Below are positions 1-54,430 of a stretch of 54,430 nt of DNA, one piece after another (position 1 is the stretch's first letter; each line of letters opens with the position of its first letter). Made by a program: the position numbers and the translations under genes. The DNA comes from an uncultured Eubacteriales bacterium. GTDB lineage: Bacteria; Bacillota; Clostridia; Christensenellales; CAG-138. The DNA lies in assembly GCA_902792295.1 (NCBI GenBank), contig CADAZC010000021.1, forward strand, positions 1 to 54,430. The letters are read 5' to 3'. Under the pieces are notes generated by a model. The model was not told the DNA's origin. It saw only the letters and a program-made list of their open reading frames with translations, and did no database searches.

Positions 1-106
1 GCCGTTCGGCTGCCCGGGGTATCTCCGGCTTTCCACCTGCGTCAGCCACGACATGATCCTGCGCTCGCTGCCCGCCTTCAAGGCGCTGATCGAAGCAGGT
101 CTGTAA
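1..106 (+). CDS. C-terminal end of a PLP-dependent aminotransferase (class I/II), partial
   Basis: The reading frame is open from base 2 to a TAA at 104-106 and gives 34 residues. The stretch GCPGYLRLSTCVSHDMI has the shape of the C-terminal Gly-Tyr-Leu-Arg-(Ile/Leu)-Ser segment of class I/II aminotransferases, where the arginine binds the substrate alpha-carboxylate. The gene enters from the left edge, so its substrate cannot be judged. It is followed at once by an intrinsic terminator, so it ends its transcription unit. The family assignment rests on this short tail only. Confidence 0.6.
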   Translation, partial: PFGCPGYLRLSTCVSHDMILRSLPAFKALIEAGL

Positions 107-121
107 GTTCAAAAGGATCTT

Positions 122-151
122 CGGCGGAGGCTTCGGCTTCCGCCGTTTTTA
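122..151 (+). terminator. Rho-independent terminator after the aminotransferase gene
   Basis: A 10-bp GC-rich stem (122-131 with 136-145, one G-T pair) closes a TTCG tetraloop and is followed by TTTTT. It lies 15 bases after the stop codon. Confidence 0.85.
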
Positions 152-160
152 TTCCGCAAA

Positions 161-236
161 ATGCAAAGAAAACTTTGCAAAACATATTGACAAGTAAACT
201 TGGCAATGCTACAATGATGCCAATAAAACTTGGCAG
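161..236 (+). promoter_or_regulatory. Three tandem palindromic operator candidates around the promoter
   Basis: Three 20-bp imperfect palindromes occur at 161-180, 187-206 and 217-236. They share a right half-site of the form AACTTkGCA and a left half of the form TTG(A/C)CAAGT or TGCAAAG. Centres are 26 and 30 bp apart, close to whole helical turns. The second covers the -35 box and the third covers the expected transcription start. This is the usual layout for a dimeric Xre/Cro-type repressor, and a broken Xre-type gene lies in the same unit. The binding protein is inferred. Confidence 0.65.
187..215 (+). promoter_or_regulatory. Sigma-A promoter of the DUF6442/Xre unit
   Basis: TTGACA at 187-192 and TACAAT at 210-215 are separated by exactly 17 bp. 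The expected start near 222 leaves a 26-base leader before the ATG at 249. Confidence 0.85.
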
Positions 237-248
237 GAGGAACAGGAA

Positions 249-605
249 ATGAAAAAAGAGGAGATCCTTGCAAAGAGCAGGGCGGAAAACAAAGGACAGG
301 ACGAGCGGGAAAAGCAGGTTTTGATCAAAGCCGGACAGATCGCGTTTACGGTGGGCGGTGTGATGTGCATGCTGATCGCCTTGTTTAACAGCATACTGGA
401 AATGGTGGATCAGGGCGGTACACGGTTTGACCCGAAACTGAATACCATGCTGTGGGGCATCTATCTGTCGATGCTGGGATCGCTGTTCCTGTACAAATAT
501 ATCAAGCTGAAAAAGAAACACGAGTTGTTTCTTTCGATTATGCTTCTTACCGTTTCCCTTGCGGGATTGGTATGGACCGTGCTTCGCATGACGGGGGTAC
601 TCTGA
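249..605 (+). CDS. Small membrane protein, DUF6442-like
   Basis: This 118-residue protein begins with a charged segment (KKEEILAKSRAENKGQDE) that resembles the start of the DUF6442 membrane proteins found next to Xre-type regulators in Firmicutes. Three hydrophobic segments follow, at roughly residues 35-52, 64-80 and 93-112, so it should sit in the cytoplasmic membrane with a cytoplasmic N-terminus. The start is fixed by AGGAGGAACAGGAA just before the ATG. The next gene overlaps it by ATGA, so the two are translationally coupled. Its function is not known; pairing with a small DNA-binding protein suggests a membrane-linked regulatory role. This stretch is more AT-rich than the rest of the window, compatible with acquisition by transfer. 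Confidence 0.75.
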   Translation: MKKEEILAKSRAENKGQDEREKQVLIKAGQIAFTVGGVMCMLIALFNSILEMVDQGGTRFDPKLNTMLWGIYLSMLGSLFLYKYIKLKKKHELFLSIMLLTVSLAGLVWTVLRMTGVL

Positions 606-779
606 TGAACGATGCGTTGATTCTGAAAAATCGCCTCAAAGAGGCGCGTACCGAGGCGGGCATGAGCCAGACGCAGCTTGCGGAAACGGTCGGCGTATCG
701 CGCAATACGATCGCTGGCGCTGATCCTGTGCATCGCGCTGGACAGGAAATTTGAAGAGCTGTTCTATTTCGACGAATGA
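605..779 (+). pseudogene. Xre-family (YozG-like) transcriptional regulator, broken by an internal deletion
   Basis: The first 38 codons from ATG 605 encode a typical small Xre helix-turn-helix protein (MSQTQLAETVGVSRNTI is the DNA-binding helix pair). The frame then breaks near base 711 and runs out at 754. In another frame the expected tail LALILCIALDRKFEELFYFDE continues to a TGA at 777-779. Comparison with the usual about 65-70 residue family suggests that about 13 codons (about 38 bp) are missing, including the third helix and the start of the fourth. As written the gene cannot make a normal repressor. It is coupled by ATGA to the membrane-protein gene before it. Confidence 0.8.
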
Positions 780-781
780 AA

Positions 782-815
782 AAAGGATCCTTTCCGAGAT
801 CGGAAAGGATCCTTT
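782..815. terminator. Bidirectional terminator between the Xre remnant and tldE
   Basis: A perfect 16-bp inverted repeat (782-797 and 800-815) with a 2-base loop has A-rich and T-rich ends on the two sides. It sits between convergent genes and can stop transcription both ways. Confidence 0.85.
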
Positions 816-827
816 GCGCTGTTTCGG

Positions 828-2131
828 TTACTTGCCGGAAACGATGAGCTTGTCGATCAGCAGCGACGGCGAACCGACTCTGCCGCCCATCGGGATGCCG
901 AAGCGCAGGTCGCTGCCGACCAGTTCCCGGCGACCGTGATCTGGTCGACGGAGCGCACGATTTCGCCGTTTTCGACGAGCTGTCCTCTTGCGATCAGCGA
1001 GAAGTCGCCGCTGATCGGGTTCAGCCCCGCGTGCAGACCGGACACCTCGGTGATGATGAGCCCGTTTCCGAGCGCTGCCTTGAGTTCGTCGAAGCTCTTT
1101 TCGCCCTTCACAATATAGAAATTGCTCGGCGCTGTGGTGACGGCGCCCGCCGCGCCCATGCGCCCCGCGTTGGAGGTGGAAACAACGCCGTCCTTCTTCG
1201 CGGACTTCAGGTTATAGAGATAGCTCTTCAATACGCCGTTTTCCGCTACGGTCGTCAGCACGGAGGGAACGCCCTCGGCGTCGAACGCGCGGGGATTATC
1301 CGCCTCGAACGGATCGTCGAGGATCGTGATCGCGGGGCTTGCGATCGTTTCGCCGAGCTTGCCGGTCAGAAGCGACAGCCCCTTCTGCACGCGTTCCGCA
1401 AAGAACATGGACGAGAACGCGGAAAGCAGATCGCCCGCGGCGTCGTTGCGCAGCAGGATGCGGTACTCGCCGGAATCGACCGTCGATGCGTTGAACTCCA
1501 GCAGCGTGTTCTCGACGCTTTCCTTGATGATCCCGGCGTAGTCCGTGATCTCCGGTCCGAACTTGAACGCAAAGCTGCAATGCTCCTCGTCGCCGTCCTT
1601 GAGAATGGGACCGAGCACGGCGTAGGAATACCGTTCCGTGCTGTTCGCCTTTAATCCGAGCGTGTTGCTGATATGCGTTTCGACGACGCCGGTGTCCACG
1701 GAGCAGTACTCCGTGCGGTTGACGCGCGGATCGTAGGCGAGCGTGTCGCGCTCCAGATCCATCGCGAGCCGGATCTTTTCCTCTTCGGGCAGATCGACGA
1801 ACGGATTGGGCTTTTCATGGATCTCCGGATATTCGCACGCGCCCTGCATGGGGTTTTCATCCGTGCTTTCGATCGCCTTGGCGTTGTCGATCGCATGGTT
1901 GACGAGGACTTCCGGATCCTCGAAAACCTCGGTATAGGCGTACCCGCTCTTGCCTTCAAACAGCACGCGCAGGTTCAGCCCCTTGCTGCGTTCCACCGCG
2001 TATTTGTCGAGTTCGCCGTTCAGAACGTTGACGGAGAACCCGTCGGACGTGACGGAATAGATTTCGGCGCTTTCGCAGCCCTTTTCGAGCGCAAGCGCGA
2101 AGCATGCGTCCTTAAACTGTTCGTATGTCAT
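828..2131 (-). pseudogene. tldE: TldE/PmbA-type metallopeptidase-partner protein, frame broken near its 3' end
   Basis: From ATG 2131 the protein begins MTYEQFKDACFALALEKG and follows the TldE/PmbA family to SVDQITVAGN. TldE is the non-catalytic partner of TldD; the dimer degrades or matures small peptides and lacks the HExxxH zinc site in this subunit. The frame is lost at about base 926. The expected tail (LVGSDLRFGIPMGGRVG...DKLIVSGK) continues in another frame to a TAA at 828-830. The family normally has about 8-9 more residues at this point (an F-x-E-L-L-K-N-I-like segment), so about 25-28 bp are missing. The start overlaps the tldD stop (TAATG) and has AGGAGGTG before it. Confidence 0.85.
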
Positions 2132-3522
2132 TACAGAGCACCTCCTTTGCCGCCCACGACGATTTCGCTCACGCGGATGCGCGGCTGACCGACGTTCGTG
2201 GGAATGCTGCCGGACATGGAACCGCACATGCCGGGCGCCATCCACATCTCTTTGCCGATCCGGTCGATCTTCATAAGGACCTCCGCACCCTTGCCGATCA
2301 GCGTTGCGCCGCGGACCGGGCACAGGATCTTGCCGTCCTTCACCCAGTACGCTTCGCCGACCGCAAAGTTGAATTCTCCGGTCAGCGGGTTCACGGAGCC
2401 GCCGCCCATCTTTGCGGCGAAGAGTCCGTCGCCCATTGTGCGGATCATTTCCTCCGGATCGTCCTTCCCGGGCGCAAAGAACGTGTTGGTCATGCGCGAG
2501 GTCGGGGCGTAGGTGTAGTCCTGCCGTCTGCCGCTGCCGGTGACCGGGTGGTTCATCAGCCGCGAACCGAGGATGTCGACGAGGTACGATTTCAGGATGC
2601 CGTTTTCGATCAGCAGGTTCCGCTGCGCGGGATTGCCTTCGTCGTCAAAGTGCATCGAGCCCCATTCGCCGGGCAGCGTGCCGTCGTCCACCGCGTTTAC
2701 GATCGGGCTTGCGATCTGCTGATGAAGCTTACCGCAGAACACGGAATTGCCGCGTCCCACACTGGTCGCTTCCAGTCCGTGTACGCACGCCTCGTGCAGA
2801 ATGACGCCGCCGAAGCCGCCGTCGATCACGACCGGCACCTTGCCCGCGGGGCATTCCGGCGCGTGCAGCATCGTCACCGCCGTCTTTGCTGCGGTGCGGC
2901 CGGATCTTTCGATATCGATCTTTTCCCGGAACGCCTCGAAGCCCATGCCGTAGCCGGGGGAATCTCCGCCGGTCTGCGCTTCGCCGTTCGCCATCGCGAC
3001 CGCCTGGATCGAGGCGCGGCAGCGCGGACGCCGGTCCTCGGCATGCACGCCTTCGCTGTTGTAGACCCACGTGCGGTGGTCGCAGTCCATATAGTTCGCC
3101 ACGACCTGCGTGATCTCATCCGAGTACGCCTTCGCGGCGTTCGTGCCGTCGCGCAGCAGCGCGATGCGCTTTGCGTTGTCGATCTCCGAGAACGGGATCT
3201 TCGCCCACGGCGTTCCGATCCGGTCGACGTTGACCGCCTTCGCTTCAAACTCCTTCGTGCCCTTCAGCGCGGAAGCCGCCGCCCTTGCACAGGCGATCAG
3301 CGCGTCCCCGCTCGTGTCGGCGGTGTACGCATAGGCGCTTCTCGTGCCCTTCAGCACGCGCACGCCCGCGCCGACCTTGCGCTGATAGTTCGCGTTCTCC
3401 ACCTTGCCGTCGATCATCGACAGGGTGTTGCTTTCGGTGTCCTGAAGATACAGTTCCGAAAAATCTCCGCCGGTTCTGAGCGCCTCGTCCAGAACGGCGT
3501 TTACGATACTGCTTTTGATCAA
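2131..3522 (-). CDS. tldD: TldD zinc metallopeptidase
   Basis: This is the catalytic subunit of the TldD/TldE heterodimeric protease, about 463 residues, normal for the family. The zinc motif HExxxH is present as HEACVHGLEATS near residues 243-248; most family members have Gly-His-Ser where this one has Val-His-Gly. I place the start at TTG 3522, because GGGAGGT lies 8 bases before it and the protein then begins MIKSSIVNAVLDEAL like its relatives. A GTG at 3531 in the same frame overlaps the ribosome binding site. It is the first gene of a tldD-tldE operon with one-base overlap. Its own promoter lies at 3557-3585. Confidence 0.92.
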   Translation of the reverse strand: MIKSSIVNAVLDEALRTGGDFSELYLQDTESNTLSMIDGKVENANYQRKVGAGVRVLKGTRSAYAYTADTSGDALIACARAAASALKGTKEFEAKAVNVDRIGTPWAKIPFSEIDNAKRIALLRDGTNAAKAYSDEITQVVANYMDCDHRTWVYNSEGVHAEDRRPRCRASIQAVAMANGEAQTGGDSPGYGMGFEAFREKIDIERSGRTAAKTAVTMLHAPECPAGKVPVVIDGGFGGVILHEACVHGLEATSVGRGNSVFCGKLHQQIASPIVNAVDDGTLPGEWGSMHFDDEGNPAQRNLLIENGILKSYLVDILGSRLMNHPVTGSGRRQDYTYAPTSRMTNTFFAPGKDDPEEMIRTMGDGLFAAKMGGGSVNPLTGEFNFAVGEAYWVKDGKILCPVRGATLIGKGAEVLMKIDRIGKEMWMAPGMCGSMSGSIPTNVGQPRIRVSEIVVGGKGGAL

Positions 3523-3556
3523 ATCACGCACCTCCCGTTTTTGTTCTTAATGATTC

Positions 3557-3585
3557 ATTATAACATAACCCCGCGCCGCCGTAAA
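3557..3585 (-). promoter_or_regulatory. Sigma-A promoter of tldD-tldE
   Basis: On the minus strand TATAAT (3562-3557) follows TTTACG (3585-3580) with a 17-bp spacer. It begins immediately after the terminator of the preceding gene. Confidence 0.7.
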
Positions 3586-3612
3586 TAAAAAAAGCTTCCC
3601 GCCCGGGAAGCT
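3586..3612 (-). terminator. Terminator of the DUF1292 gene
   Basis: AGCTTCCC (3593-3600) pairs with GGGAAGCT (3605-3612), followed on the minus strand by a T-rich run. It separates the DUF1292 gene from tldD. Confidence 0.8.
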
Positions 3613-3652
3613 CTTTTTCATTAAAACAGTCCGCCCCCTTATACGGCGGTCG

Positions 3653-3967
3653 TCATTCTTCGGTCTTGTCGCAGCCCTCGCAGTCCTCGGCGTCGCAGTC
3701 CCAGCACTCCATGCGCTTTTCCGCGATCGCGAACAGCTCGTCCAGAAGATCGTCGGGAACGGGCACGAACTCTTCCATGTCCTCTTCTTCGTTTACGATG
3801 ATCTCCATGATGCAGACCTCGAAGTCCTCCTCGGGCTCCTCGGGCAGGTCCGCGTCCACCAGAACGGCATATTCCTTGCCGTTGTGCTCAAAATAATCAA
3901 TGACCTCAAGGTCAAACTCGTTGCCTTCCTCATCGGTAAAGGTGACAAGATCTCTTTCGTCTTCCAT
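3653..3967 (-). CDS. DUF1292 (YrzB-like) acidic protein
   Basis: The 104-residue protein starts MEDERDLVTFTDEEGNEFDL and matches the DUF1292 pattern: a short beta-rich domain with FTDEEGNE and a Tyr-Phe-x-x-x-x-x-x-Tyr-Ala-Val-Leu core. A glutamate/aspartate-rich middle follows. A four-cysteine tail (CWDCDAEDCEGC, residues about 89-100) could bind a metal; that tail is not a standard part of the domain. AAAGGAG lies 7 bases before the ATG at 3967, so the longer frame starting upstream is not used. The gene stands alone between its own promoter and terminator. In many Firmicutes it sits beside ruvX and alaS, which are not here. The function is unknown. Confidence 0.8.
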   Translation of the reverse strand: MEDERDLVTFTDEEGNEFDLEVIDYFEHNGKEYAVLVDADLPEEPEEDFEVCIMEIIVNEEEDMEEFVPVPDDLLDELFAIAEKRMECWDCDAEDCEGCDKTEE

Positions 3968-3997
3968 AGTGTTTCTCCTTTGCTTTACTTCTTTCCT

Positions 3998-4026
3998 ATT
4001 GTATCGCATCCGCGTCCGTATTGCAA
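3998..4026 (-). promoter_or_regulatory. Sigma-A promoter of the DUF1292 gene
   Basis: On the minus strand TTGCAA (4026-4021), 17 bp, then TACAAT (4003-3998). Confidence 0.8.
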
Positions 4027-4090
4027 GAAAAACCGCCGCGGGGCATGCGAAAACTTTTTTTGCAAATCAAAAACAAATGCAGATTTCCTC

Positions 4091-4119
4091 TTGTGCGCGG
4101 GCGGGAAATCGATTATAAT
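4091..4119 (+). promoter_or_regulatory. Sigma-A promoter of the YheO-type regulator-ygeY-ygeW operon
   Basis: TTGTGC at 4091-4096 and TATAAT at 4114-4119 with a 17-bp spacer; the predicted start at about 4126 is 25 bases before the ATG. Confidence 0.8.
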
Positions 4120-4150
4120 ATATATTGAGAAAACGTGGGGGAAACGATAC

Positions 4151-4792
4151 ATGGATCTGGCTTTTTTTGAGCGTCTCAGCAAGGCGATCGCGGCGCAGTT
4201 CGGTTTCAACTGCGAGGTCGCGGTGCACGATCTGAAAAGCGGCGACATGGAGCACACGGTGGCGATCATCGAAAACGGACACGTTACGAACCGCAAAAAA
4301 GGCGACGGTCCGAGCCGCGTGGTGCTCGAAGCGCTGAAGGAGACCGATCCCGAAAAACTGGAGGATCAGGCGGGATATCTGATGCGCACGCACGACGGAC
4401 GCATTCTGAAATGCTCCACGGTCTACATCCGCGACGAAAACGGCGTGCCGGAGGGCGTGTTTTCGATCAATTACGACATCACCGAGCTCTTGATGGCGGA
4501 GCGCGCGGTCGGCTCGATCCTGCACCATAAGGAGGAGGAAAAGAAGCTGCCGGATCGCATTCCGCAGTCGGTCAACGAGCTCCTCGACGATCTCATCGAA
4601 CAGTCGGTGCAGCTGGTCGGCAAGCCCGTCGCCATGATGAACAAGGAGGACAAGATCAAGGCGATCGCGTTCCTCAACAAGGCGGGCGCGTTCCTCATCA
4701 CGCGAAGCGGCGACAGGGTGTCCAAATACTTCGGCATCAGCAAATATACCCTGTATTCCTATATCGACGCAAAAACTCCCAATCAGGAATAA
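4151..4792 (+). CDS. YheO/DauR-type transcriptional regulator (PAS-like domain plus HTH)
   Basis: The 213-residue protein has an N-terminal YheO-type PAS-like domain (about residues 1-120, with VAVHDLKSGDMEHTVAIIENG and DENGVPEGVFSINYDIT). A C-terminal helix-turn-helix (about 165-210) ends in VSKYFGISKYTLYSYIDA, the recognition-helix signature of this family. Members such as DauR sense an amino-acid-related ligand and control the adjacent catabolic genes. It is the first gene of an operon with ygeY 15 bases downstream, so it probably controls ureido/amino-acid breakdown by ygeY-ygeW. GGGGGAAACG precedes the ATG. The ligand cannot be read from the sequence. Confidence 0.88.
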   Translation: MDLAFFERLSKAIAAQFGFNCEVAVHDLKSGDMEHTVAIIENGHVTNRKKGDGPSRVVLEALKETDPEKLEDQAGYLMRTHDGRILKCSTVYIRDENGVPEGVFSINYDITELLMAERAVGSILHHKEEEKKLPDRIPQSVNELLDDLIEQSVQLVGKPVAMMNKEDKIKAIAFLNKAGAFLITRSGDRVSKYFGISKYTLYSYIDAKTPNQE

Positions 4793-4807
4793 AGAAAGGA
4801 CAACGGC

Positions 4808-6184: not shown

Positions 6185-6193
6185 GGAGGATTT

Positions 6194-7407
6194 ATGAGCA
6201 ACGTTAAAAAGTATACCGATAAGCTGGACGAGCTGAAGTTCGACAAGATGTATAACGGCGACTTTTTCCTGACCTGGGAAAAGACCGACGACGAGATCGC
6301 GGCGGTGTTCACCGTGGCGGACGCTTTAAGGCATCTTCGCGAGAACAACGTCTCCTGTAAGATTTTCGATTCCGGTCTCGGCATTTCGCTGTTCCGTGAC
6401 AACTCGACCCGCACGCGCTTCTCGTTCGCGTCGGCGTGCAACCTTTTAGGGCTTGAAGTACAGGACCTCGACGAGGGCAAGAGCCAGATCGCGCACGGTG
6501 AAACGGTGCGCGAGACCGCGAACATGATCTCGTTCATGGCGGACGTCATCGGCATCCGCGACGACATGTATATCGGCAAGGGCAACACAACGTCGTCAAC
6601 GCCGTCACCGAGGGCAACAAGGCGGGCGTGCTCGAACAGAAGCCGACGCTCGTGAATCTCCAGTGCGACATCGATCACCCGACCCAGTGCATGGCGGATA
6701 TGCTGCACTGCATTCACACGCTCGGCGGAAGCGACGATCTTGACGAGGCGATCAAAAACCTCAAGGGCAAGAAGGTCGCCATGACCTGGGCGTACAGCCC
6801 GTCGTACGGCAAGCCGCTTTCCGTGCCGCAGGGCGTTGCGGGGCTGTTCACGCGGTTCGGCATGGACGTCACGCTCGCGTACCCCGAGGGCTACGAGATC
6901 ATGGACGACGTCGTGAAGGTCGCGGAGGAGAACTGCCGTAAATCCGGCGCGAAGTTCAAGATCACGCACGACATGAAGGAAGCGTTCAAGGATGCGGACA
7001 TCGTGTATCCGAAGTCCTGGGCGCCCTATAAGGCAATGGAGGAGCGCACCGAGCTGTACGGCAAGGGCGATCTCGAGGGCATCAAGGCGCTCGAAAAACG
7101 CCTCCTTGCGCAGAACGCGGAGCACAAGGACTGGGAGTGCACCGAGGAGATGATGCAGCTCACCAAAGACGGCAAAGCGCTGTATCTGCACTGCCTGCCC
7201 GCCGACATCACCGACGTATCCTGCGAAGCGGGCGAAGTCGCGGCGAGCGTGTTCGACCGCTATCGCGATCCGCTGTATAAGCAGGCGTCGTTCAAGCCGT
7301 ACATCATTGCGGCGATGATCTTCCTCGCGAAGGTCAAAAACCCGCAGGCGACGCTTCTGAAGCTCGAAGCCGACGCCAAAAAGCGCTGGGAGGGCGGAGA
7401 AGCATAA
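6194..7407 (+). pseudogene. ygeW: YgeW-type carbamoyltransferase, frame broken by a short deletion
   Basis: Both halves match YgeW, a knotted carbamoyltransferase of the aspartate/ornithine carbamoyltransferase fold. The N-terminal half has the carbamoyl phosphate loop DNSTRTRFS. The C-terminal half has VNLQCDIDHPTQ, WAYSPSYGKPLSVPQG and HCLPADI. The reading frame changes just after KGN (base about 6586). E. coli YgeW reads KGHTYMREV there; in this sequence about 10 bp covering T-Y-M-Q are missing, and the second frame resumes at NVVNAVTEGNKAG. Everything else is intact, so the lesion is either very recent or a sequencing/assembly error. GAGGA precedes the ATG. Gene order regulator-ygeY-ygeW supports a catabolic operon. 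Confidence 0.85.
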
Positions 7408-7517: not shown

Positions 7518-7522
7518 ACATC

Positions 7523-13291: not shown

Positions 13292-13335
13292 TCGGCAAAT
13301 CGCATAGAACACGGTCGAAAAACAGATCGTCAAAC

Positions 13336-13368
13336 AAAAAGCAGATGCGAAACAACATCTGCTTTTTT
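13336..13368 (+). terminator. Terminator after arcB
   Basis: AAAAAGCAGATG (13336-13347) pairs with CATCTGCTTTTT (13356-13367) around an 8-base loop and ends in a T run. Confidence 0.88.
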
Positions 13369-13424
13369 GTTATGAAATCGCCGGTTTTCCGGGCGTAAAA
13401 CGGCATGTAAATCATATATTTTAT

Positions 13425-13453
13425 TTGACAAAACCCGAAAAAAGTGTTAATCT
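13425..13453 (+). promoter_or_regulatory. Promoter of the GntP permease gene
   Basis: TTGACA at 13425-13430 is followed after 17 bp by TAATCT (13448-13453). The flanking 100 bp are AT-rich. Confidence 0.65.
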
Positions 13454-13497
13454 TTATACGTCCCAATCAATAAAAATTCAAAGGGGGTTTATTGGGT

Positions 13498-14898
13498 ATG
13501 ACAGGGATATGGCTCATTATTGCGTTCGTCATAGCGATCGCTGCGATGATCCTGCTGATCTCGAAACTGAAGGTACATCCCTTCCTCGCGATCATGCTGA
13601 TTTCTCTCATTCTGGCGCTGATTGCGGGCATTTCTCTGGTCGACATCAAAGACGAGGCGGGGAAAGTTGTTGAAAAAGGAATCCCGACAATCATCAACGA
13701 AGGTTTTGCAAACACCTTTAAGTCCATCGGTATCGTCATTATTCTCGGCGCATTTATCGGAACCGTTCTTGAAAAGACGGGCGCCGCATTGAAGCTTGCC
13801 GATATGGTCATCAAGGTGGTCGGCGAAAAGAATCCGGGTCTTGCGGTCGAGCTCATGGGCTGGGTCGTTTCCATTCCGGTCTTCTGCGACAGCGGCTTCG
13901 TCATTCTGAACCCGATCCGCAAAGCGCTCGTCAAGCGCACCGGCAAATCGAGCGTTGCGATGACGGTCTGCCTTTCCTGCGGTCTGTACATTGCGCACGT
14001 ATTCATCCCGCCGACACCCGGCCCGATTGCTGCAGCCGGATATCTCGGAATTGCAGAAAATCTGTTGCTGGTCATCGGCATCGGCGTTCTTTGCTCGATC
14101 TTCCCGCTGATTGCAGGTTTCTTCTATGCGAAGTTCATCGGCAAGAAGATCAAGAGCGCAGACGAAGTGACCGATAACGGCGAAGTCGTCAAGACGTATG
14201 AAGAACTCAAGGCGGAGTTCGGCAAGCTTCCGAACGGCGTCATTACAATCGCTCCTCTGGTGGTCCCGATCCTTCTGATGGCTGCGTCCTCCATTATTTC
14301 GATGGCAGGCGGAACCGGCTTCTTCGCGAACCTGTTCATGTTCCTCGGCACACCGATCATGGCGCTTTCCGTCGGCACGGTTCTTGCAATCGTTCTGTTG
14401 TTCGTGAGCAAGAAGGGCAAGGACTTCTATAATATCACGAATGAAACACTGAAATCCGTCGGCCCGATTTTGTTCATCACGGCGGCCGGCGGCGTTCTCG
14501 GCAACGTCATCTCGGCATCCGGCCTGATCGGATTCATCACCGCGCCCGAGAGAGTAAACATTCTGAAGGCATTGGGTATTTTCTTCCCGTTCCTCCTGTC
14601 GGCAATTCTCAAGTGTGCGCAGGGTTCCTCCACGGTCGCGATCACGACCACGGCAAGTATCGTTGCGCCGCTTCTCGGCGCGCTCGGCTTTGCAACGCCC
14701 GTTGAGATCGCGCTTGTCGTTATGGCGATCGGCGCCGGCGCAATGACCGTGTCCCACGCGAACGACAGCTACTTCTGGGTCGTCACCAACTTCGGCGATA
14801 TGACGCCGGAACAGGGCTACAAGACGCAGACGCTGATGACGCTGGTCATCGGTCTTGCTTCGATGGTCGAGATCTTCATTCTCAGCTTGATCTTCTGA
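13498..14898 (+). CDS. GntP family permease, probably for glycerate or a related sugar acid
   Basis: This protein of 466 residues is strongly hydrophobic with about 12-14 membrane segments. It matches the GntP (gluconate:H+ symporter) family, including PVFCDSGFVILNPI and the conserved FIPPTPGPIAAA loop, plus a C-terminal AMTVSHANDSYFWVV segment. Members carry gluconate, glycerate, D-serine or similar acids. The next gene is a glycerate kinase, so glycerate is the most likely substrate (inference). I chose ATG 13498; a TTG two codons earlier is also possible, with GGGGG before both. Its codon use has more AT than the surrounding housekeeping genes. Confidence 0.9.
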   Translation: MTGIWLIIAFVIAIAAMILLISKLKVHPFLAIMLISLILALIAGISLVDIKDEAGKVVEKGIPTIINEGFANTFKSIGIVIILGAFIGTVLEKTGAALKLADMVIKVVGEKNPGLAVELMGWVVSIPVFCDSGFVILNPIRKALVKRTGKSSVAMTVCLSCGLYIAHVFIPPTPGPIAAAGYLGIAENLLLVIGIGVLCSIFPLIAGFFYAKFIGKKIKSADEVTDNGEVVKTYEELKAEFGKLPNGVITIAPLVVPILLMAASSIISMAGGTGFFANLFMFLGTPIMALSVGTVLAIVLLFVSKKGKDFYNITNETLKSVGPILFITAAGGVLGNVISASGLIGFITAPERVNILKALGIFFPFLLSAILKCAQGSSTVAITTTASIVAPLLGALGFATPVEIALVVMAIGAGAMTVSHANDSYFWVVTNFGDMTPEQGYKTQTLMTLVIGLASMVEIFILSLIF

Positions 14899-16433: not shown

Positions 16434-16492
16434 ACGCGTATCTCCTTTGCCTTTTTTCTACAGTATATCATATTCTGCGGAGTTGACAAGAC

Positions 16493-18208
16493 TCAATCCC
16501 AGATACGGTATGCCATCAGGAAGTGTTCCTTCCAGTATTTGCTGGAGAGGATGCTGCTCGTGATGCGGACCTTGCCCTTTGAGGAGGACGCATCGATCAT
16601 TTTGCCGCTGCCGAGGTAGATGCCGACGTGACCGGTCGACATGGAGCTGCCCTTGAACACAAGGACGTCGCCGCGCTTCAGCTGGCTCATCGATGTGATG
16701 CGCATATATTTCGTACAGCTTCGCCATGCAATGCTGGTCATATAGCTCTGCTTGACGCCCGCCTGGTTCAAGCACCAGTATACGAAGCCGGAGCAGTCGA
16801 ACCGGTCCGGTCCTTTCGCGCCGCGCACGTATTTGCAGCCGAGCTTGCTTTCCGCGATGGCGATAAACGCTTCCTTGCCCTTCCCGTAATTGATCGTGCT
16901 GCCGCCGGGTTTCGGCGTCGGCGTCGAGCCGGGCTTCGGGGTGGTTTTCGCTGTTGTGCCGGGCTTCTTGGTCGTCGACGGTTTCTTCGTGGGCTTCGGC
17001 GTTGCTGGCTTCGGCGTTGCCGGCGCGTGCTTCGCGTCTTCGCTCAAAAGCAGTTCCATCGTGTCCGGATTGACCGTGCCGTCGTTTTTCAGATCGTTGC
17101 GCAGCTGGAAGGACTTGACCGCATCCTTGGTCTTGTCGCCGTAATAACCGGTAATCTGTCCTTTGGTAAGATAACCGAAATGCGCAAGCCGACGCTGGAT
17201 CTGCAGCACGTCCGTGCCTTCGGCGCCGAGGTTGAACAAATAGGATTCGCCGCCGGTCTTCAATAGATCAACGGTCGATAATCCGAGACAGCCGTCCACA
17301 ACGAGCCCGTTCTGCTCCTGATAGCGGCGTACCGCGCACTGCGTATACCGGTCAAACTCGCCGCTCGGCAGGACGGTCAGATAACCCAGATCAAACAGCT
17401 GCTCCTGACAGGACTTGATCACGTCGTCCTTTTCGCCGAGCCCGTAGAAATTGGGAACGGTGGATTCGCCGAGCAGCACCTCAAACGCCTCATTGTCGAT
17501 GATGACGTCGGATTTCAGCTTGTTTTTCAGGCGGAACCGCTTTACCGCGGCTTCCGTGTCCGCATCGTATTCGCCGAAGGGGGTCCCCTCGAGATAGCCG
17601 AGTTCGATCAGACGTTCCTTTGCAAGCTCCACGTCGTCGCCGGTCGAGCCGCGCACCATGGCATAGGTCAGCGCACCGTCGGAGAACAGCTTTTCAAAGG
17701 TCGCGGCGTCGCAGATGCCGTTTGCATGCATACCGTTTCGCACCTGAAATGCGCGCACCGCGTCCGCGGTGCCTTCGGAGTATTCGTCGTCCGGCTGTTC
17801 AAAGTCCAGATAATCCAGCTCCATCAGCCGGATCTGAATGTCCAGAACGATCGGTTCCTCGTCGCCGGCCAAAAGCGTATCGCCGTTCAGGGGATGGCGC
17901 GACGGCGTGGGCGTCGGGGAAGGCGTCGGCGTGGGAGAAGGGGTGGGCGTCGGCGCAAAGGACGGCTCCGGCGTATCCAGCGCGGGGTCGGGCGTCACAA
18001 GCGCCTGCACGGGCGTCGCGGGGATCTCGTAGGCAACGTCGTCAACGACATTGGAAGGCAGATCCAGAACGACGTTGTCGATCCCCCCGTCACGGTGCGA
18101 ACCGGCGGTCGCCGCGCAGCCGATCAGCAGCGCGGCAAGAGTGCCGGCTGCAAAATAAGCGATATGCGCCGCGATGCGCTTCGGTTTGATTCCGTTCGGG
18201 CGTTCCAT
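16493..18208 (-). CDS. Lipoprotein with four peptidoglycan-binding domains and a C-terminal NlpC/P60 endopeptidase
   Basis: From ATG 18208 (AAAAGGAG upstream) the 571-residue protein has a membrane segment ending in lipobox LIGC and a Thr/Pro linker (about residues 84-105). Four PG_binding_1 repeats follow between about 115 and 390 (for example LGYLEGTPFGEYDADTEAAV). After a second Lys/Thr/Pro linker comes an NlpC/P60 domain with nucleophile Cys472 (FDCSGFVYWCL) and His527 (TGHVGIYLG). It should bind and cut murein stem peptides outside the cell, for growth or separation. The upstream extension of the frame to 18268 lacks a ribosome binding site. Confidence 0.93.
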   Translation of the reverse strand: MERPNGIKPKRIAAHIAYFAAGTLAALLIGCAATAGSHRDGGIDNVVLDLPSNVVDDVAYEIPATPVQALVTPDPALDTPEPSFAPTPTPSPTPTPSPTPTPSRHPLNGDTLLAGDEEPIVLDIQIRLMELDYLDFEQPDDEYSEGTADAVRAFQVRNGMHANGICDAATFEKLFSDGALTYAMVRGSTGDDVELAKERLIELGYLEGTPFGEYDADTEAAVKRFRLKNKLKSDVIIDNEAFEVLLGESTVPNFYGLGEKDDVIKSCQEQLFDLGYLTVLPSGEFDRYTQCAVRRYQEQNGLVVDGCLGLSTVDLLKTGGESYLFNLGAEGTDVLQIQRRLAHFGYLTKGQITGYYGDKTKDAVKSFQLRNDLKNDGTVNPDTMELLLSEDAKHAPATPKPATPKPTKKPSTTKKPGTTAKTTPKPGSTPTPKPGGSTINYGKGKEAFIAIAESKLGCKYVRGAKGPDRFDCSGFVYWCLNQAGVKQSYMTSIAWRSCTKYMRITSMSQLKRGDVLVFKGSSMSTGHVGIYLGSGKMIDASSSKGKVRITSSILSSKYWKEHFLMAYRIWD

Positions 18209-26599: not shown

Positions 26600-26657
26600 A
26601 ATTATACCACAACATCTTGTGTCTGAGGAATTATACCACAACATCTTGTGTCTGAGG
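26600..26657 (-). promoter_or_regulatory. Tandemly duplicated promoter element of parE-parC (two exact 29-bp copies)
   Basis: Positions 26600-26628 and 26629-26657 are identical over 29 bp. Each contains, on the minus strand, TGGTATAAT, an extended -10 box (hexamers at 26606-26601 and 26635-26630). Neither has a good -35 box. The downstream copy would start transcription near 26594, giving a 22-base leader. Confidence 0.75.
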
Positions 26658-26807: not shown

Positions 26808-27780
26808 ATGGAGACCGGATTTCATCATGTTCCGATCATGGTTTCGGAAGTGCTGGAGCTTTTAGAGCCCTCCCGCGGCGGAATGCGGCGGAATCTTCGT
26901 CGACGGCACGCTCGGCGGCGGCGGACACGCGGAAGCGGTGCTCTCCGCAATGCCGGAAAGCGGAAAGCTCTTCGGCATCGACCGCGACGACGAGGCGCTC
27001 GAAGCGGCGGGCGCACGGCTTGCGTGTTTCGGCGACCGGTTCACGGCGATCAAGGGCAATTTCTTCGACATGAAATCGCTGCTTGCCGCGCGCGGCGTTT
27101 GCAAGGTCGACGGTATTCTTCTGGACCTCGGCGTCAGCTCGCATCAGCTCGACGCGCGCGAACGCGGCTTCTCCTACAAGGCGGAAGCGCCTCTGGACAT
27201 GCGCATGGATCAAAGCGCGCCGCTTTCGGCGAAAACCGTCGTGAACGAATGGCCGGAGGAGAAGCTGCGCGAGATCTTTTACGAGTACGGCGAGGAGAAG
27301 TTTTCCGCAAAGATCGCGCGGCGGATCGTCGAGCGGCGGGCGGAACGGCCGATCGAAACGACGACGGAGCTTGCGGAGCTCATTAAAAGCGCGATCCCGG
27401 CAAAGTTTCGGAACGAGCCGCAGCATCCGGCGCGGCGGTGCTTTCAGGCGATCCGCATTGCCGTGAACGGCGAGCTCGACGGGCTGGACGAAGCGATCCG
27501 AAATGCGCACGATCTGCTGAATCCGGGCGGACGGCTTGCGATTCTGACCTTCCACTCGCTGGAGGACCGGATCGTGAAAAACGCGTTCCGCTCGTTCGAG
27601 AACCCCTGCACCTGCCCGAAATCGGCGCCGGTGTGCATCTGCGGCAAAAAGCCCACCGCAAAGGTCCTGACGCGGCATCCGCTGACGGCGTCGGAACGGG
27701 AACAAACGGAAAATTCGCGCGCGACGAGCGCAAAGCTTCGCGCGATCGTGCGCATGGATCCCGACACGGGATCATATTGA
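26808..27780 (+). pseudogene. rsmH: 16S rRNA m4C1402 methyltransferase RsmH (MraW), frame broken by a 10-bp tandem duplication
   Basis: AAAGGAG and ATG 26808 begin METGFHHVPIMVSEVLELLEPSRGG, the normal RsmH start. The frame then shifts at an exact 10-bp repeat (26875-26884 equals 26885-26894). Removing one copy restores GGIFVDGTLGGGGHAEAVL, the SAM-binding motif, and a full-length protein of about 320 residues. The rest is intact: GILLDLGVSSHQLD, AERGFSYK-like and MRMDQ segments, FQAIRIAVNGEL and LTFHSLEDRIVKNAF. As written, translation from the true start would end early. It is the first gene of the dcw cluster and is followed by ftsL. Confidence 0.88.
26875..26894 (+). repeat. 10-bp tandem duplication inside rsmH
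   Basis: The decamer GCGGCGGAAT occurs twice in direct succession and shifts the frame of rsmH by one base. Confidence 0.95.
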
Positions 27781-36925: not shown

Positions 36926-38324
36926 CGAACGGGCGAGCTTCCTGTTTGACGACGACGCGGGCAGGGATCGGGAAACGATCGACCTGTTCGGACCGGACGA
37001 GCCGTACGACGAGCCGGACGAGGAGCCGGACGACGAAACGGTCGAGCCGGACGAGGAGCCGGACGACGAAACGGTCGAGCCGGACGACGCGGACGAGGAA
37101 GCGCTTTCACCCGACGAACCGGACAAGCCCGAAAAGACGGACGGATCGGATAAAAAAACCGACACGCCCGAGTTTCGCTTTGACCGGTACGGACGCCGCA
37201 TCGGAAAAAAGAAAGCACGGTACGGCAAGCGCAAAAACGCGCCGAAGGCGACCACCACCGTCATCGAAAACGAGACCGTCGCGAAGCGCGAGTACGACGA
37301 CGCCCGCGCACGGAGCGAGGCGCGCGCCAAAAAACGCGCCCGCGAAGAGGCGAAAAAGGCGGCATTGCGAAAGGCGGAACGCCGCAAACTGCGGCAGCGC
37401 AGTCTTTCGACCGTGGTGCTGGGTGTGATCGCGGCGGCGGTGCTTCTGGGGCTCACATGGTTTGTGACGCGCTTGCAGAAGGTGAACGTGCCGTTCGTGC
37501 CGGAGGGCTATACCGCACAGCAGATCGTCGAACTGTCCGGTTTGAGCTCCAAGATCGGCAAACGCAGCGCGCTTTTCATCAGCACGCGCGACGTCGAAAA
37601 GCATATCCGCGAAACGGATACCTATCTCGATGCGACCGTCCGGTACGCATTCCCGTCCACGATCACCGTCACGGTGAGCAAACGTGACGAGGCGGCGTGC
37701 GTCCGCTGGGGTCCGCAGAACGAGTATCTGGCAATCATCGACGAAAACGGCACGGTGCTGAATGCGGCGGCGGAGACGACGAACGGTCTTCTGATCGCCG
37801 ACGGCATGAGCATTTCCAGCGCGGTCAACGGCGCGCGGCTCGGCGACGCAAGCGACATTCAGGTTGCCGCGCTGATCCGGCTGCTCGTAAAGCTCAAGGA
37901 GCTGGGCATTCTCGAACGCACCCCGCGCATCAACCGCATCGACATGACGGAGCTGATGCAGATCCGCATGTACGTCGAAGGCGCGCCGTACACGATCGAG
38001 GTCGGGGACACCTCAAACCTCGAAACGAAGCTCATGCTTTTGCAGAAGCACTGGACGGAGATCATGGACGAGGCGTCCGCGTTCATCCGCAGCGGCAAAA
38101 CCACCGCGACGATCTATCTGTACAGCAAAGGCGGCGTCAACATTTCGCCCTATGAACCGGGCTACATGCTTCCGACGCTCGCGCCGGCGTCCTTTGCGCC
38201 CACGACGCCATCGCCGGACGGTGCGCCGAGCGCGCCGCCGGAGGAGCAGCCGAGCGACGACTCGTACGAACAGCAGCCGGTCTCCACGCCGATGCCGCAT
38301 CAGGACAACCCGTTTACGGGCTAA
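36903..38324 (+). CDS. ftsQ: FtsQ/DivIB-type cell division protein with long acidic-basic N-terminus
   Basis: The 473-residue protein starts at TTG 36903 (AAAGGA upstream), inside the end of murA. A very acidic stretch (about residues 13-80) contains an exact 11-residue repeat (DEEPDDETVEP). A very basic, coiled-coil-like stretch (about 95-165) follows, then one membrane helix (about 168-187). An FtsQ-type POTRA domain (VPFVPEGYTAQQIVELSGL... and RYAFPSTITVTVSKR) and the DivIB beta domain follow, and a Pro/Ser-rich tail ends the protein. It should scaffold the divisome with FtsL. The cytoplasmic part, about 165 residues, is unusually long for this family. Confidence 0.88.
   Translation: MAKKNKRDERASFLFDDDAGRDRETIDLFGPDEPYDEPDEEPDDETVEPDEEPDDETVEPDDADEEALSPDEPDKPEKTDGSDKKTDTPEFRFDRYGRRIGKKKARYGKRKNAPKATTTVIENETVAKREYDDARARSEARAKKRAREEAKKAALRKAERRKLRQRSLSTVVLGVIAAAVLLGLTWFVTRLQKVNVPFVPEGYTAQQIVELSGLSSKIGKRSALFISTRDVEKHIRETDTYLDATVRYAFPSTITVTVSKRDEAACVRWGPQNEYLAIIDENGTVLNAAAETTNGLLIADGMSISSAVNGARLGDASDIQVAALIRLLVKLKELGILERTPRINRIDMTELMQIRMYVEGAPYTIEVGDTSNLETKLMLLQKHWTEIMDEASAFIRSGKTTATIYLYSKGGVNISPYEPGYMLPTLAPASFAPTTPSPDGAPSAPPEEQPSDDSYEQQPVSTPMPHQDNPFTG
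37011..37076 (+). repeat. Exact 33-bp tandem repeat in ftsQ
   Basis: 37011-37043 and 37044-37076 are identical, and a 12-base partial third copy follows. The unit encodes 11 mostly acidic residues, so copy number can change without frameshift. Confidence 0.95.
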
Positions 38325-38623: not shown

Positions 38624-38838
38624 TTACTCTGCGCAGTAGGGCAGCAGAGCCATGATCCGCGCGCGCTTGATCGCGACCGCGAGATCGCGCTGATGCTCGG
38701 CGCACACGCCGGACATACGGCGAAGCCCTGCAGCTTTTTGATGTCCTTATAATCGATGGATGTGGCCTTCTCAACGCAGAAACGGCAAACTTTGCGTCTG
38801 CTTCTCGGACGACGGGGACGCAGTTTACGATCTTCCAT
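38624..38838 (-). pseudogene. rpsR: Ribosomal protein S18, frame broken by an internal deletion
   Basis: ATG 38838 begins MEDRKLRPRRPRSRRKVCRFC and follows S18 to DYKDIKKLQ (residue 37). The frame then changes at about base 38727. The expected ending [32 protein letters not shown] continues in another frame to the TAA at 38626-38624. About 9-10 codons (28 or 31 bp), the conserved F-x-x-x-x-G-K-I-x-P-R segment, are missing. S18 is an essential 30S protein that pairs with S6, so either a second copy exists or this is an assembly error. It is the last gene of the rpsF-ssb-rpsR operon, 24 bases after ssb. Confidence 0.88.
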
Positions 38839-48138: not shown

Positions 48139-48184
48139 ATCGCTTCCTCCTTTCCGTGATTGCAACAGTATAGCACGGTTTCCG

Positions 48185-50691: not shown

Positions 50692-50729
50692 TCATCCTCC
50701 GTCCGGTCCGTACACATCGGACCACGGAA

Positions 50730-50758
50730 ATTATATCGCATTCGTGCCGCGGGCGCAA
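50730..50758 (-). promoter_or_regulatory. Sigma-A promoter of feoAB
   Basis: On the minus strand TTGCGC (50758-50753), 17 bp, TATAAT (50735-50730). No clear Fur box was seen. Confidence 0.75.
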
Positions 50759-50787
50759 GGGGAGGAAACGGTCGTTTTCCATCGTTT

Positions 50788-50824
50788 CAAAAAAAACGCT
50801 TCCGATCCGTTCGATCGAAAGCGT
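50788..50824 (-). terminator. Terminator of the small lipoprotein gene
   Basis: On the minus strand a 12-bp stem (50824-50813 with 50807-50796, one mismatch) is followed by eight T. Confidence 0.82.
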
Positions 50825-50842
50825 CTGTTCGCAGCGATTGCG

Positions 50843-51088
50843 TCAGTTTCCCGCCGTTGCGCCTGCGCTCGGCGACGCCGCCGGCTCGGTCGGCATGACC
50901 GGCGCGACCGTATCCTCGGGCATCATGCTCGGAACGGGCGGCTGCGTCACAACAGGCGCCGCCGTCATGGTCGGCGCGGCGCTCGGCGCCTTCGTCGGCG
51001 TCGAAATGTTTCCGCGCGCGGAGCACGTGCAGCCGACAAGCAGCAGCGTCAGAACGAGCAGCGGGATCAAAAAGAATCGTTTCATCAT
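50843..51088 (-). CDS. Small low-complexity lipoprotein
   Basis: The 81-residue protein has a signal peptide with lipobox LLVGC and then a mature part made almost only of Pro, Thr, Ala, Ser and Met (TPTKAPSAAPTMTAAP...). There is no folded domain, so it looks like a truncated or minimal surface spacer. AAAGGAG lies 6 bases before ATG 51088; the next codon is also ATG. It is a single-gene unit upstream of and divergent from rsmA, with its own terminator. The same Pro/Thr spacer style occurs in the amidase, NlpC/P60 and C11 proteins of this window. Confidence 0.65.
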   Translation of the reverse strand: MMKRFFLIPLLVLTLLLVGCTCSARGNISTPTKAPSAAPTMTAAPVVTQPPVPSMMPEDTVAPVMPTEPAASPSAGATAGN

Positions 51089-51146
51089 GCGCATCTCCTT
51101 TCGGTTCTTTTCCGTCAGTATGTCCGTCTTCGCCGCGGTTATACGC

Positions 51147-51175
51147 TTGCGGGACGTGGAAAACTATGCTATACT
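51147..51175 (+). promoter_or_regulatory. Sigma-A promoter of rsmA, placing the start on the ATG
   Basis: TTGCGG at 51147-51152 and TATACT at 51170-51175, spacer 17 bp. The expected transcription start is 51182, the A of the ATG. Confidence 0.78.
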
Positions 51176-51181
51176 GCGCGT

Positions 51182-51970
51182 ATGAGAGCAAGCATCGCAT
51201 TTGTCAAAACAGCATTATCGGAATTGAACGCAAACCCGAACCGCGCCCTCGGTCAGAACTTCTGCATCGACGGCGAGCGGCTTTCTTCCTGCGTCGAAGC
51301 GATGACGCTTGCAAAAAACGTGATCGAGATCGGTCCCGGTCTCGGCGCATTGACCGAGCTCCTGCTCGAAAAAAACGTTGCGCTCACCGCGGTCGAAAAG
51401 GACGAAGCGATGGCGGCGTATCTTCAAAAATCGCTCGCCGATCCGGATCTTGCGGTGATTGCGGGCGACGCGCTGAAATTCGATTACAAAGCCGTGCAAA
51501 AGCCGTTTTCGGTCGTCGGGAATCTGCCGTACTACATCACCGCGCCGCTTTCGACGGCGGTTCTGAAGGCGCTGCCGGCGTCGTTTTACTGCATGGTGCA
51601 GAAGGAAGCGGCGGATCGCTTCTTTGCCGCGCCGAGGGACAAAAACTACGGACCGCTTTCGATTCTGACACAGCTTTATTATGACGCGAAGCCGCTTGCG
51701 GCATTCCCGCCGGACTGCTTTTATCCGAGCCCGGACGTGCAGTCGGTCTTCGTCGGCATGACGAAAAAACCGCACGCGCCGGAGGACGATCCCGCTGCGA
51801 TTTTCGCGTTCTGCACCGCGCTTCTTTCCATGCGCCGCAAAACGATCAAAAACAATCTGAAACAATACGCAAACGCCGCGGGCGCGCTTTCTGCGCTCGG
51901 CATTTCGCCCGAAACGCGCGCGGAAACGCTTTCGCCCGAAACGTTCCTTTCGCTGTATCGTCTGCTCTGA
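51182..51970 (+). CDS. rsmA: 16S rRNA dimethyladenosine transferase RsmA (KsgA)
   Basis: KsgA (262 residues) dimethylates two adjacent adenines near the 3' end of 16S rRNA. The order of motifs is standard: NRALGQNFCID, the SAM loop VIEIGPGLGALTELLLE, AVEKDEAM, GDALKFD, the catalytic NLPYYITAPL, and the C-terminal MRRKTIKNNLKQ. It is slightly shorter than usual (270-290). No Shine-Dalgarno precedes ATG 51182, and the -10 box ends 6 bases upstream, so the mRNA is probably leaderless. Longer frames starting upstream run into feoB antisense and are not real. Confidence 0.95.
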   Translation: MRASIAFVKTALSELNANPNRALGQNFCIDGERLSSCVEAMTLAKNVIEIGPGLGALTELLLEKNVALTAVEKDEAMAAYLQKSLADPDLAVIAGDALKFDYKAVQKPFSVVGNLPYYITAPLSTAVLKALPASFYCMVQKEAADRFFAAPRDKNYGPLSILTQLYYDAKPLAAFPPDCFYPSPDVQSVFVGMTKKPHAPEDDPAAIFAFCTALLSMRRKTIKNNLKQYANAAGALSALGISPETRAETLSPETFLSLYRLL

Positions 51971-51990
51971 ACCCGGGCCTGTTTCTGATC

Positions 51991-52030
51991 AAAAAAGGCA
52001 GCGGAGCTTTGATGCTCTGCTGCCTTTATT
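51991..52030. terminator. Bidirectional terminator between rsmA and uvrB
   Basis: AAAGGCAGCGGAGC and GCTCTGCTGCCTTT form a 14-bp stem with one mismatch (51994-52026), with A and T runs at the two ends. Confidence 0.85.
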
Positions 52031-52046
52031 CTTTTTCGGCGATCCG

Positions 52047-54019
52047 CTATTTGTGCGTCTTTTCTCTTGCGCGCTTGTGCGCGCCGATCTGACCGGGCTT
52101 CAGGTCGCTCTTGCGGGTTTGCGGCTTTTCGCCCTTCAGGGCGAGGATCGCGTCGCGGAGCTTTGCCGCGGTCTCGAACTCCAGCTCGCGCGCCGCCTGC
52201 TGCATCTGTTCCGTCAGGATCGCGATGCGCTCGCGCTTCTGATACTCGGTGAGCCGTTCGGGCGGTTCCTCCTCGTGCCGCGAGATGACCAGCGTGTCAT
52301 AGACCTTTTTCTGAATGGTTTTCGGCGTGATGCCGTGCTCCGTGTTGTAGGCGATCTGCTTCGCCCTGCGGCGGGCGGTCTCATCCATGGCGCGGCGCAT
52401 GGACGCGGTGATCGTGTCGGCATAGAGGATGACGCGTCCCTCGGCGTTTCTGGCGGCTCTGCCGATCGTCTGGATCAAGCTGGTCTCGCTGCGCAGAAAG
52501 CCCTCCTTGTCCGCGTCGAGAATGGCGACAAGCCCCACCTCCGGAAGGTCGAGCCCTTCGCGTAAAAGATTGATGCCGACGAGCGCGTCGAATTCGCCGA
52601 GGCGAAGATCGCGGATGATCTCCATGCGGTCCAGCGTGTCGATGTCGCTGTGCATATAGCGCACGCGTACGCCCATGCGGTCGAGGTATTCGGTGAGGTC
52701 CTCCGCCATGCGCTTCGTCAGCGTCGTAATCAGCGTGCGGAAGCCCTTTTCCGCCTGCATGCGCACTTCGCCTAAAAGGTCGTCGATCTGTCCTTTTACG
52801 GGGCGCACCGCGACCTCCGGATCGACGAGCCCCGTCGGGCGGATGATCTGCTCGGCGACGACGGCGGCGCGGCTCATTTCAAAGCTCGCGGGCGTCGCGG
52901 ACACGCAAACCATCTGCGGCACACGCGCCATGAACTCGTCGAACTTCAGCGGGCGATTGTCCTTTGCGCTCGGCAGACGGAAGCCGTACTCGACCAGCGC
53001 GTCCTTTCTGGCGCGGTCGCCGCGGAACATACCCCCGACCTGCGGCAGCGTGACATGGCTTTCGTCGATGAACATCAGAAAATCCTTCGGGAAGTAATCG
53101 AGAAGCGTAAACGGCGGTTCACCGGGTTTCCGCCCGTCGAAGTAGCGCGAGTAGTTTTCGATGCCGCTGCAGAACCCGATCTCCTGCATCATCTCGATGT
53201 CGTGCAGCACGCGCGAACGGATGCGTTCGGCTTCCAGCGGCCGGTTGGTGTCGAGGAACATCTTTTCCTGCACCTCCATGTCCGCTTCGATCTCCTGAAG
53301 CGCCTTGTTCATCTTCTCCTGCCCGGTCGCGTAGTGCGAGGCGGGGAAGATCGCCACATGACTGCGGCGGGAAACGACCTCGCCGGTCAAAACGTTGATC
53401 TCCGAAATGCGCTCGATCTCGTCGCCGAAAAAGCCGATGCGCAGCGCCTTGTCCGTCCAGTTGACGGGGTAGACGTCGAGCGTGTCGCCGTGCGCGCGGA
53501 ACGTCCCGCGCGAAAAGTCCATGTCGTTGCGCTGATACTGGTTTTCGATGAGCCGGCGCATCACGTCGCGCCGGTCGATTTCCATGCCCTCGCGGAGCGA
53601 GACGCCACGATGATCACGTCGTTTCGCTCGTTTAAGGCGCAGGTCGCGGAGTGGCGCAGCTTGTCGATCTCGTCGTTGACGTCGATCGTCTTTTCGATAT
53701 AGGTGTCGCTCGCGGGCAGATACGCCTCCGGCTGATAGTAGTCGTAGTACGACACAAAGAACTCGACCGCGGAATCGGGAAACAGCTCCTTGAACTCGGA
53801 ACAGAGCTGCGCGGCGAGCGTTTTGTTGTGCGCAAGCACGAGCGTGGGCTTTTGCACACGCTCGATCACCTTTGCCATCGTATAGGTTTTTCCGCTTCCC
53901 GTAACGCCCAAAAGCACGGACAGGGGATTGCCTGCGTCGATGCTTTTTACAAGCGTTTCGATCGCCTGCGGCTGATCGCCCTGCGGCTCATAGGGGGAAA
54001 CGACCTTGAATTGTCCCAT
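52047..54019 (-). pseudogene. uvrB: Excinuclease ABC subunit B, frame broken by an internal deletion
   Basis: ATG 54019 begins [20 protein letters not shown] and runs through Walker A ([10 protein letters not shown]), the damage-binding beta-hairpin ([20 protein letters not shown]) and [11 protein letters not shown]. The frame breaks at about base 53602. It resumes in another frame at [17 protein letters not shown] and continues through [18 protein letters not shown], the helicase motifs and the C-terminal UVR domain. UvrB from B. subtilis has 18 residues (VSCIYGLGSPEEY...) between these points, so about 55 bp are missing. UvrB is the central helicase of nucleotide excision repair. Its start overlaps the previous gene's stop (TGATG). 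Confidence 0.88.
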
Positions 54020-54303
54020 CAATACTCGAAATCGACCGTTTTAGAATCCAGCCGGTGCGCGTGGATATAGACGCGCGCCTTCTGGTGATCGGGGTTTTTG
54101 TCGTAGATTTCAAGGTCTTCCTTCGACTTGAAATCCACGAGCAGCGCCATGTCGTAGCTTCTGCCGGAATGCATGAAGTCCTCGCCGATCTGCATCGAAA
54201 CGATCTCGGGGATCTTATCGACGAGCGCGTACAGCGAGTCGCGCACGATCGGAATATTGACCTTCGGGTCCTCAAACCGGAACAGAACGATGTGTTTGAT
54301 CAT
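54019..54303 (-). CDS. Dabb-domain (stress-responsive A/B barrel) protein
   Basis: The 94-residue protein [12 protein letters not shown]... matches the Dabb ferredoxin-like barrel family: the H-x-V-x-F-x-F strand at the start, [40 protein letters not shown] and a final strand. Members are dimeric and many have unknown function in the cytoplasm. GGAGGCAATATG is the start context. It overlaps uvrB by one base and follows deoD by 9 bases, so deoD-Dabb-uvrB form one transcript. Confidence 0.88.
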
Positions 54304-54312
54304 ATTGCCTCC

Positions 54313-54430
54313 TTATGCTTCCGCAATGGACAGCGCGACGCGGATCATCTGATCGAACGCGGTCTGCCGCTGTTCCGCCGTCGCCTCTTCCTTTGTGCCG
54401 ATGATATCGCTGATCGTATCGATCGCGAGC
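54313..54430 (-). CDS. deoD: C-terminal end of purine nucleoside phosphorylase DeoD, partial
   Basis: The frame is open from the right edge to TAA 54315-54313 and gives 38 residues. The ending TAEQRQTAFDQMIRVALSIA matches the last helix of the hexameric DeoD type (E. coli: ERQTTFNDMIKIALES). The enzyme splits purine nucleosides to base and ribose-1-phosphate. Only the tail is in the window, so the call rests on that helix. It lies upstream of the Dabb gene and uvrB. Confidence 0.65.
   Translation of the reverse strand, partial: LAIDTISDIIGTKEEATAEQRQTAFDQMIRVALSIAEA

Follow-up and report, generated by a model that had tools for sequence, protein, structure and literature searches.

Short frame-breaking lesions concentrated in one draft contig are probably local assembly errors

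Six genes of a draft bacterial contig, among them the sole rpsR found in the assembly, are each interrupted by one short indel, and a seventh lesion of similar kind lies between two genes. We put at about 0.9 the probability that local assembly errors in a draft contig, a kind of error known from the literature, account for these lesions, and the sampled cells very probably carry intact genes. The observation itself is confirmed and extended by one lesion, and what it describes is most likely not a real genomic feature. The case is a caution that broken essential genes in one draft genome are weak evidence for gene loss, and that errors may be more frequent on one contig than across the remainder of its assembly, something that quality scores for whole genomes conceal. 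Were the lesions real, a viable cell without its sole S18 gene would be very surprising.

Materials and Methods

The window, i.e. the whole stretch of DNA analysed (54,430 bases), is the complete contig C21 of an assembly of 1,836,350 bases in 104 contigs, which is 79% complete. The reference set consisted of 22 congeneric genomes (G numbers), one genome per species. Those that could be identified are metagenome-assembled genomes or uncultured isolates, several of them from goat, cattle and buffalo stomach compartments; from this origin and from its fragmentation the source assembly is very probably metagenome-assembled itself. The closest congener in most searches was G006, with 92-94% identity across window genes and 83-95% identity over the main matches to other assembly pieces.

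Differences were collected in a census that dropped blast pieces shorter than 300-400 bases or below 70% identity. In the window 52,601 bases were aligned to at least one congener and 45,732 to at least two, and positions 13296-14887 are without an aligned congener. Lesion counts take in only congener rows aligning across the break point. The first census required the congeners to agree on one size, and missed a 29-bp duplication in the window, where the aligner spread the gap, and a difference near 7990 of contig C22, where congeners give 13 and 19; a looser census did not require agreement.

Thirteen other stretches of the assembly were sampled. Six were compared with congeners, which with C22 gives seven pieces (148,018 of the 1,836,350 bases, 121,423 of them aligned to at least two congeners); C30, C40, C60, C70, C80 and C90 entered only the end-overlap and tandem counts, and C100 is all N. 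Tandem duplications were counted alignment-free, as exact duplications whose unit measured 10 bp or more and was not a multiple of three.

Results and Discussion

Six broken genes and a seventh lesion

The gene content of the window is ordinary housekeeping, with tldD/tldE-like, ygeW, ygeY, gyrB-type, rsmH, murE, murA, rpsF, ssb, rpsR, feoB and uvrB genes among others. A sequence-only reading had listed six broken genes, and all six lesions are present in the deposited sequence where it had placed them (Table 1). It had described five deletions and one tandem duplication, and comparison with congeners gives the same picture, with differences of -38, -28, -10, -28, -55 and +10 bp, none of the six being a multiple of three; the rsmH lesion is, as claimed, an exact duplication, and it is absent from congeners. 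All six lesions are private to this assembly, i.e. absent from every spanning congener row (one genome per species). Among the uvrB rows the aligner split the gap in two and put it three bases further on in three.

Table 1. Features of the window and congener rows that span each lesion and lack it
Feature	Coordinates	Strand	Description	Congener rows without the lesion
Xre/HTH_3 regulator gene	605..779	+	break at 712/713, 38 bp fewer than congeners	gap at about 713; 4/4 rows (3 genomes); 7 more rows end at the break point
tldE/pmbA-like metalloprotease ORF	857..2323	-	break near 3' end at 921/922, 28 bp fewer	gap at about 922; 1/1 row (G005), also G002 and G019; most other rows begin at 922
ygeW carbamoyltransferase gene	6194..7407	+	break at about 6585-6589, 10 bp fewer	gap at 6586/6589; 21/21 rows
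Seventh lesion	26600..26657		exact 29-bp tandem duplication, intergenic, gyrB-type gene / rsmH	absent from congeners
rsmH gene	26808..27780	+	exact 10-bp tandem duplication at 26875-26894	10/10 rows (two are the same G006 place); 15/15 genomes in looser census
rpsR (ribosomal protein S18) gene	38626..38838	-	break at 38722/38723, 28 bp fewer	20/20 rows
uvrB gene	52050..54019	-	break at about 53600/53601, 55 bp fewer	gap at about 53601; 18/18 rows (two are one G007 contig)
Shared contig end	54332..54430		exact 99 bp, equal to the end of contig C22, same assembly	

Congener alignments and family searches of the halves further bear out the claim that each gene consists of two conserved halves in different frames. 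The UvrB profile matched at 1-136 and 163-651, YgeW at 1-131 and 146-391 and RsmH at 42-307, while S18 matched only at 26-52 of 52 and HTH_3, for the Xre regulator, only at 1-26 of 55. The tldE ORF encodes a PmbA/TldD-like protein with scores below the curated cut-offs, and a Pfam search with the 35-aa N-terminal piece of rpsR gave no match. All other genes had been described as full length, and wherever the window could be aligned to at least one congener nothing contradicted this.

The 29-bp tandem duplication was missing from the earlier list. A 29-bp difference was also considered as private to G006 and rejected, being the window's own duplication. Six of the seven lesions thus lie in genes, a proportion based on few events that were chosen for breaking frames.

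Deletion ends are nearly blunt

In congener sequence the homology between the two ends of a deletion amounts to 0-3 bp (five deletions, 27 comparisons). Slippage is unlikely because of this short homology, and slippage at direct repeats was rejected since the deletion ends are without direct repeats. A mutator acting by slippage would also be expected to produce changes of one and two bases in runs; across the aligned part of the window no indel of that length lay clearly within a gene. Flanking mismatches, counted over 50 bases on each side of a deletion, agreed with the overall identity for most comparisons; the left flank in tldE is worse (13 of 50). With hairpin-skipping in mind, the missing segments were folded together with 15 bases on each flank; the energies, obtained without a control, ranged from -2.1 to -12.4 kcal/mol.

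Similar constraint on broken and intact genes

Pooled pN/pS of broken vs. intact genes, from pools that leave out the Xre gene, was 0.086 vs. 0.150 with G006 as reference (13 intact genes; broken genes here being rsmH, rpsR and uvrB only), 0.145 vs. 0.181 with G022 (16 intact) and 0.162 vs. 0.205 with G019 (14 intact). For rpsR, on 65 codons, the single values were 0.0, 0.309 and 0.312. Relaxed selection, as in true pseudogenes, was therefore not seen, with the reservation that very recent breaks would not show. Any real break must be young, because constraint equals that of intact genes; the breaks are not old, and they are probably not real.

For S18, a core ribosomal protein, the profile search of the assembly hit a single place, where half a gene matched. 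DNA searches of the assembly found no second copies of the other broken genes. The possibility that the six are redundant paralogues, which the sequence-only reading had left open, thus met with broken copies only, in an assembly that is 79% complete.

Similar lesions are rarer elsewhere

With at least two congeners aligned, the window holds five lesions in 45,732 bases, and the other pieces hold one (first census) or two (looser census) in 121,423 bases, so a genome-wide excess of short indels was not encountered. A one-sided binomial test gives 0.007 with one outside lesion and about 0.02 with two, values that are overstated as the window was picked for its lesions. One outside lesion is in C50 (L238:2598-2608), where 16 bp have been lost without homology at the ends, interrupting a frame that runs for 943 aa in G022. 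The other, near 7990 in C22 (L148:7990), is 13 bp shorter than G012, which has a 626-aa frame, and 19 bp shorter than G017, and is a probable further broken gene on the neighbouring contig.

Congeners have such gaps too. A gene that reads as one frame of 981 aa in this assembly is short of 10 bp in G022 (C5, L393 near 8568), and G017 is without 10 bp near the end of uvrB. Of six congener-private gaps that were checked, those in G001, G002, G003 and G012 have long frames running through them, and in G017 the uvrB frame is 644 aa, so that its gap may change only the end of the gene. Exact tandem duplications number two in the 54,430 bases of the window, one in 211,879 other assembly bases and three in 716,718 bases of 16 congeners. 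The lesion class is not special to this organism, yet it is commoner on this contig.

The contig end and likeness to known assembly errors

The last 99 bases of C21 equal the last 99 of C22 in opposite orientation, and in G006 one contig (C63) continues through the join. Among 23 unmasked contig ends, the 5' end of the window included, no other gave a match to a sampled piece. A strain switch along the contig was also considered and rejected: per-kb identity to G006 lies between 0.860 and 0.989 and shows no visible step at the lesions.

In de Bruijn assemblies contig ends overlap by n or n-1 for the largest k, and local assembly errors, a suspected prominent feature of IDBA-UD output, introduce wrong gene sequences into databases (Chen et al. 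2020, PMC7111523). The likeness to C21 extends to contig ends shared over roughly the largest k, incorrect gene sequence at isolated points, duplicated sequence at joins, and wrong repeat numbers. Differences are also evident, as those errors were recognised by missing read support and the C21 lesions by comparison with congeners; the type described there as Ns inserted despite overlap has Ns and contig C21 has zero; and a curated case had 13 reported errors in 1,133,667 bp, compared with seven lesions in 54 kb on C21. Many frameshift pseudogenes stem from assembly (Cooley and Wright 2024, PMC11017572), and the C21 lesions are like these spurious pseudogenes in being frameshifts of conserved genes, which there depend on assembler and coverage; that study states that metagenome-assembled genomes were outside its assessment. 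The RGIG-titled congeners appear to belong to a ruminant-gut genome collection built with MEGAHIT and IDBA-UD (PMC8199421). A literature search for pseudogenes combined with misassembly in metagenome-assembled genomes found no paper.

Explanations for the lesions

Assembly artefact was among the explanations raised from the sequence, and it is supported by the near-blunt ends, the constraint on the broken genes, the 99-bp contig-end overlap and the similar gaps elsewhere. Short-read pieces would have been assembled or joined, with some junctions closed at the wrong distance: a junction closed too short would lose 10-55 bp, and an unmerged overlap would repeat 10 and 29 bp. Joining at the wrong distance is expected to yield both signs, losses as well as exact duplications left unmerged, and as the specific step we give it about an even chance. 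We infer from the contig both the step behind the lesions and that reads would fail to support the junctions. Some points stand against assembly error. An assembler habit that acts genome-wide does not by itself explain why the lesions are concentrated here, so that low depth or strain mixture in contig C21 would have to be assumed; blunt ends are beyond a pure de Bruijn step unless a read or a scaffolding step makes the join; and the contig contains no Ns. Concentration in one contig would also suit real minor variants, chimeric molecules or mixed strains, from which a low-depth consensus adopted rare deletion-bearing reads, as would a contig ending at a shared 99-bp stretch, which strain branching can give. 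We nevertheless hold this origin to be improbable, since several independent rare variants would be needed within one 54-kb stretch and none of the six lesions occurs in any spanning congener row.

That a real mutator lineage, slipped-strand or repair-deficient, recently broke these genes is in our judgement very improbable; the sequence-only reading had offered a slipped-strand mutator state as one possibility. UvrB works in nucleotide excision repair and its gene is among those hit, the lesions are denser in the window than elsewhere in the assembly, the youth that constraint imposes on any break would agree with a recent origin, and the two of seven lesions that are exact tandem duplications, of 10 and 29 bp, resemble products of slipped-strand mutation, as in phase variation. 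The other five are deletions that, unlike slippage products, have no flanking repeats, and the proposal is further weakened by the want of any clear one- or two-base indel within window genes, by the one or two comparable lesions in the 121,423 bases of the seven other pieces, and by the sole rpsR found being among the broken genes; we also know of no role for loss of UvrB in causing slippage. It is very hard to believe that, in a living bacterium, near-blunt deletions of 10-55 bp and short, exact tandem duplications really arise in bursts in a single part of the chromosome, its sole rpsR included. Programmed frameshifting, translational bypassing or redundant decaying paralogues would fit the conservation of both halves, but are scarcely credible, as five genes miss conserved codons in stretches that are present in congeners and that recoding cannot supply, and decaying paralogues are at odds with unrelaxed constraint and with the absence of second copies from the assembly searches.

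Other differences and repeats

The window also has a polarised gain of 6 bp at 18169 and three polarised differences of one base: two of these, at 3534 and 20557, are found a short way upstream of long ORFs, and the third, at 4011, falls in poorly alignable sequence. Seven of the eight polarised differences of at least 4 bp are not multiples of three. Together with the share of lesions in genes, the sole rpsR among them, this count would agree with placement regardless of function and frame, on few events in a list whose reader had sought frame breaks. Differences against a single congener only were seen in the window at 3637, 8717, 8850, 14904 and 18342, and in other pieces at C1 19440; C5 3892, 5893 and 6705; C20 3512 and 4511; and C22 9309 and 12568. 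In variable stretches of the window near 16491, 42326 and 50769 the congeners also disagree with one another, and in the looser census two congeners disagree on size at C5 7682, C15 14752, C20 10802, C20 18900 and C50 12927.

Differences of 10 bases recur, in ygeW (6586), rsmH (26875), G017, G022, L094, L238:8110 and L147:1808, though these are few events; those against one congener are at window 18342, window 32009 and C22 12568. The lesion sizes (10, 28, 28, 38, 55, +10 and +29) were considered as a code tied to assembler k values, again on few events.

Downstream of murA, at 37010-37087, the window has a 33-bp exact tandem repeat of 2.36 copies, which was not flagged as window-private. In C15 of this assembly (G000:C15), L234:12923-13240 has many scattered matches in all four congeners searched and looks like a dispersed repeat family of the genus. 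At L234:1-236 of the same contig, 236 bp are 100% identical to G006:C58 where the adjoining long matches are 86% identical, for which recent exchange, strong conservation of the stretch or a mobile piece could account.
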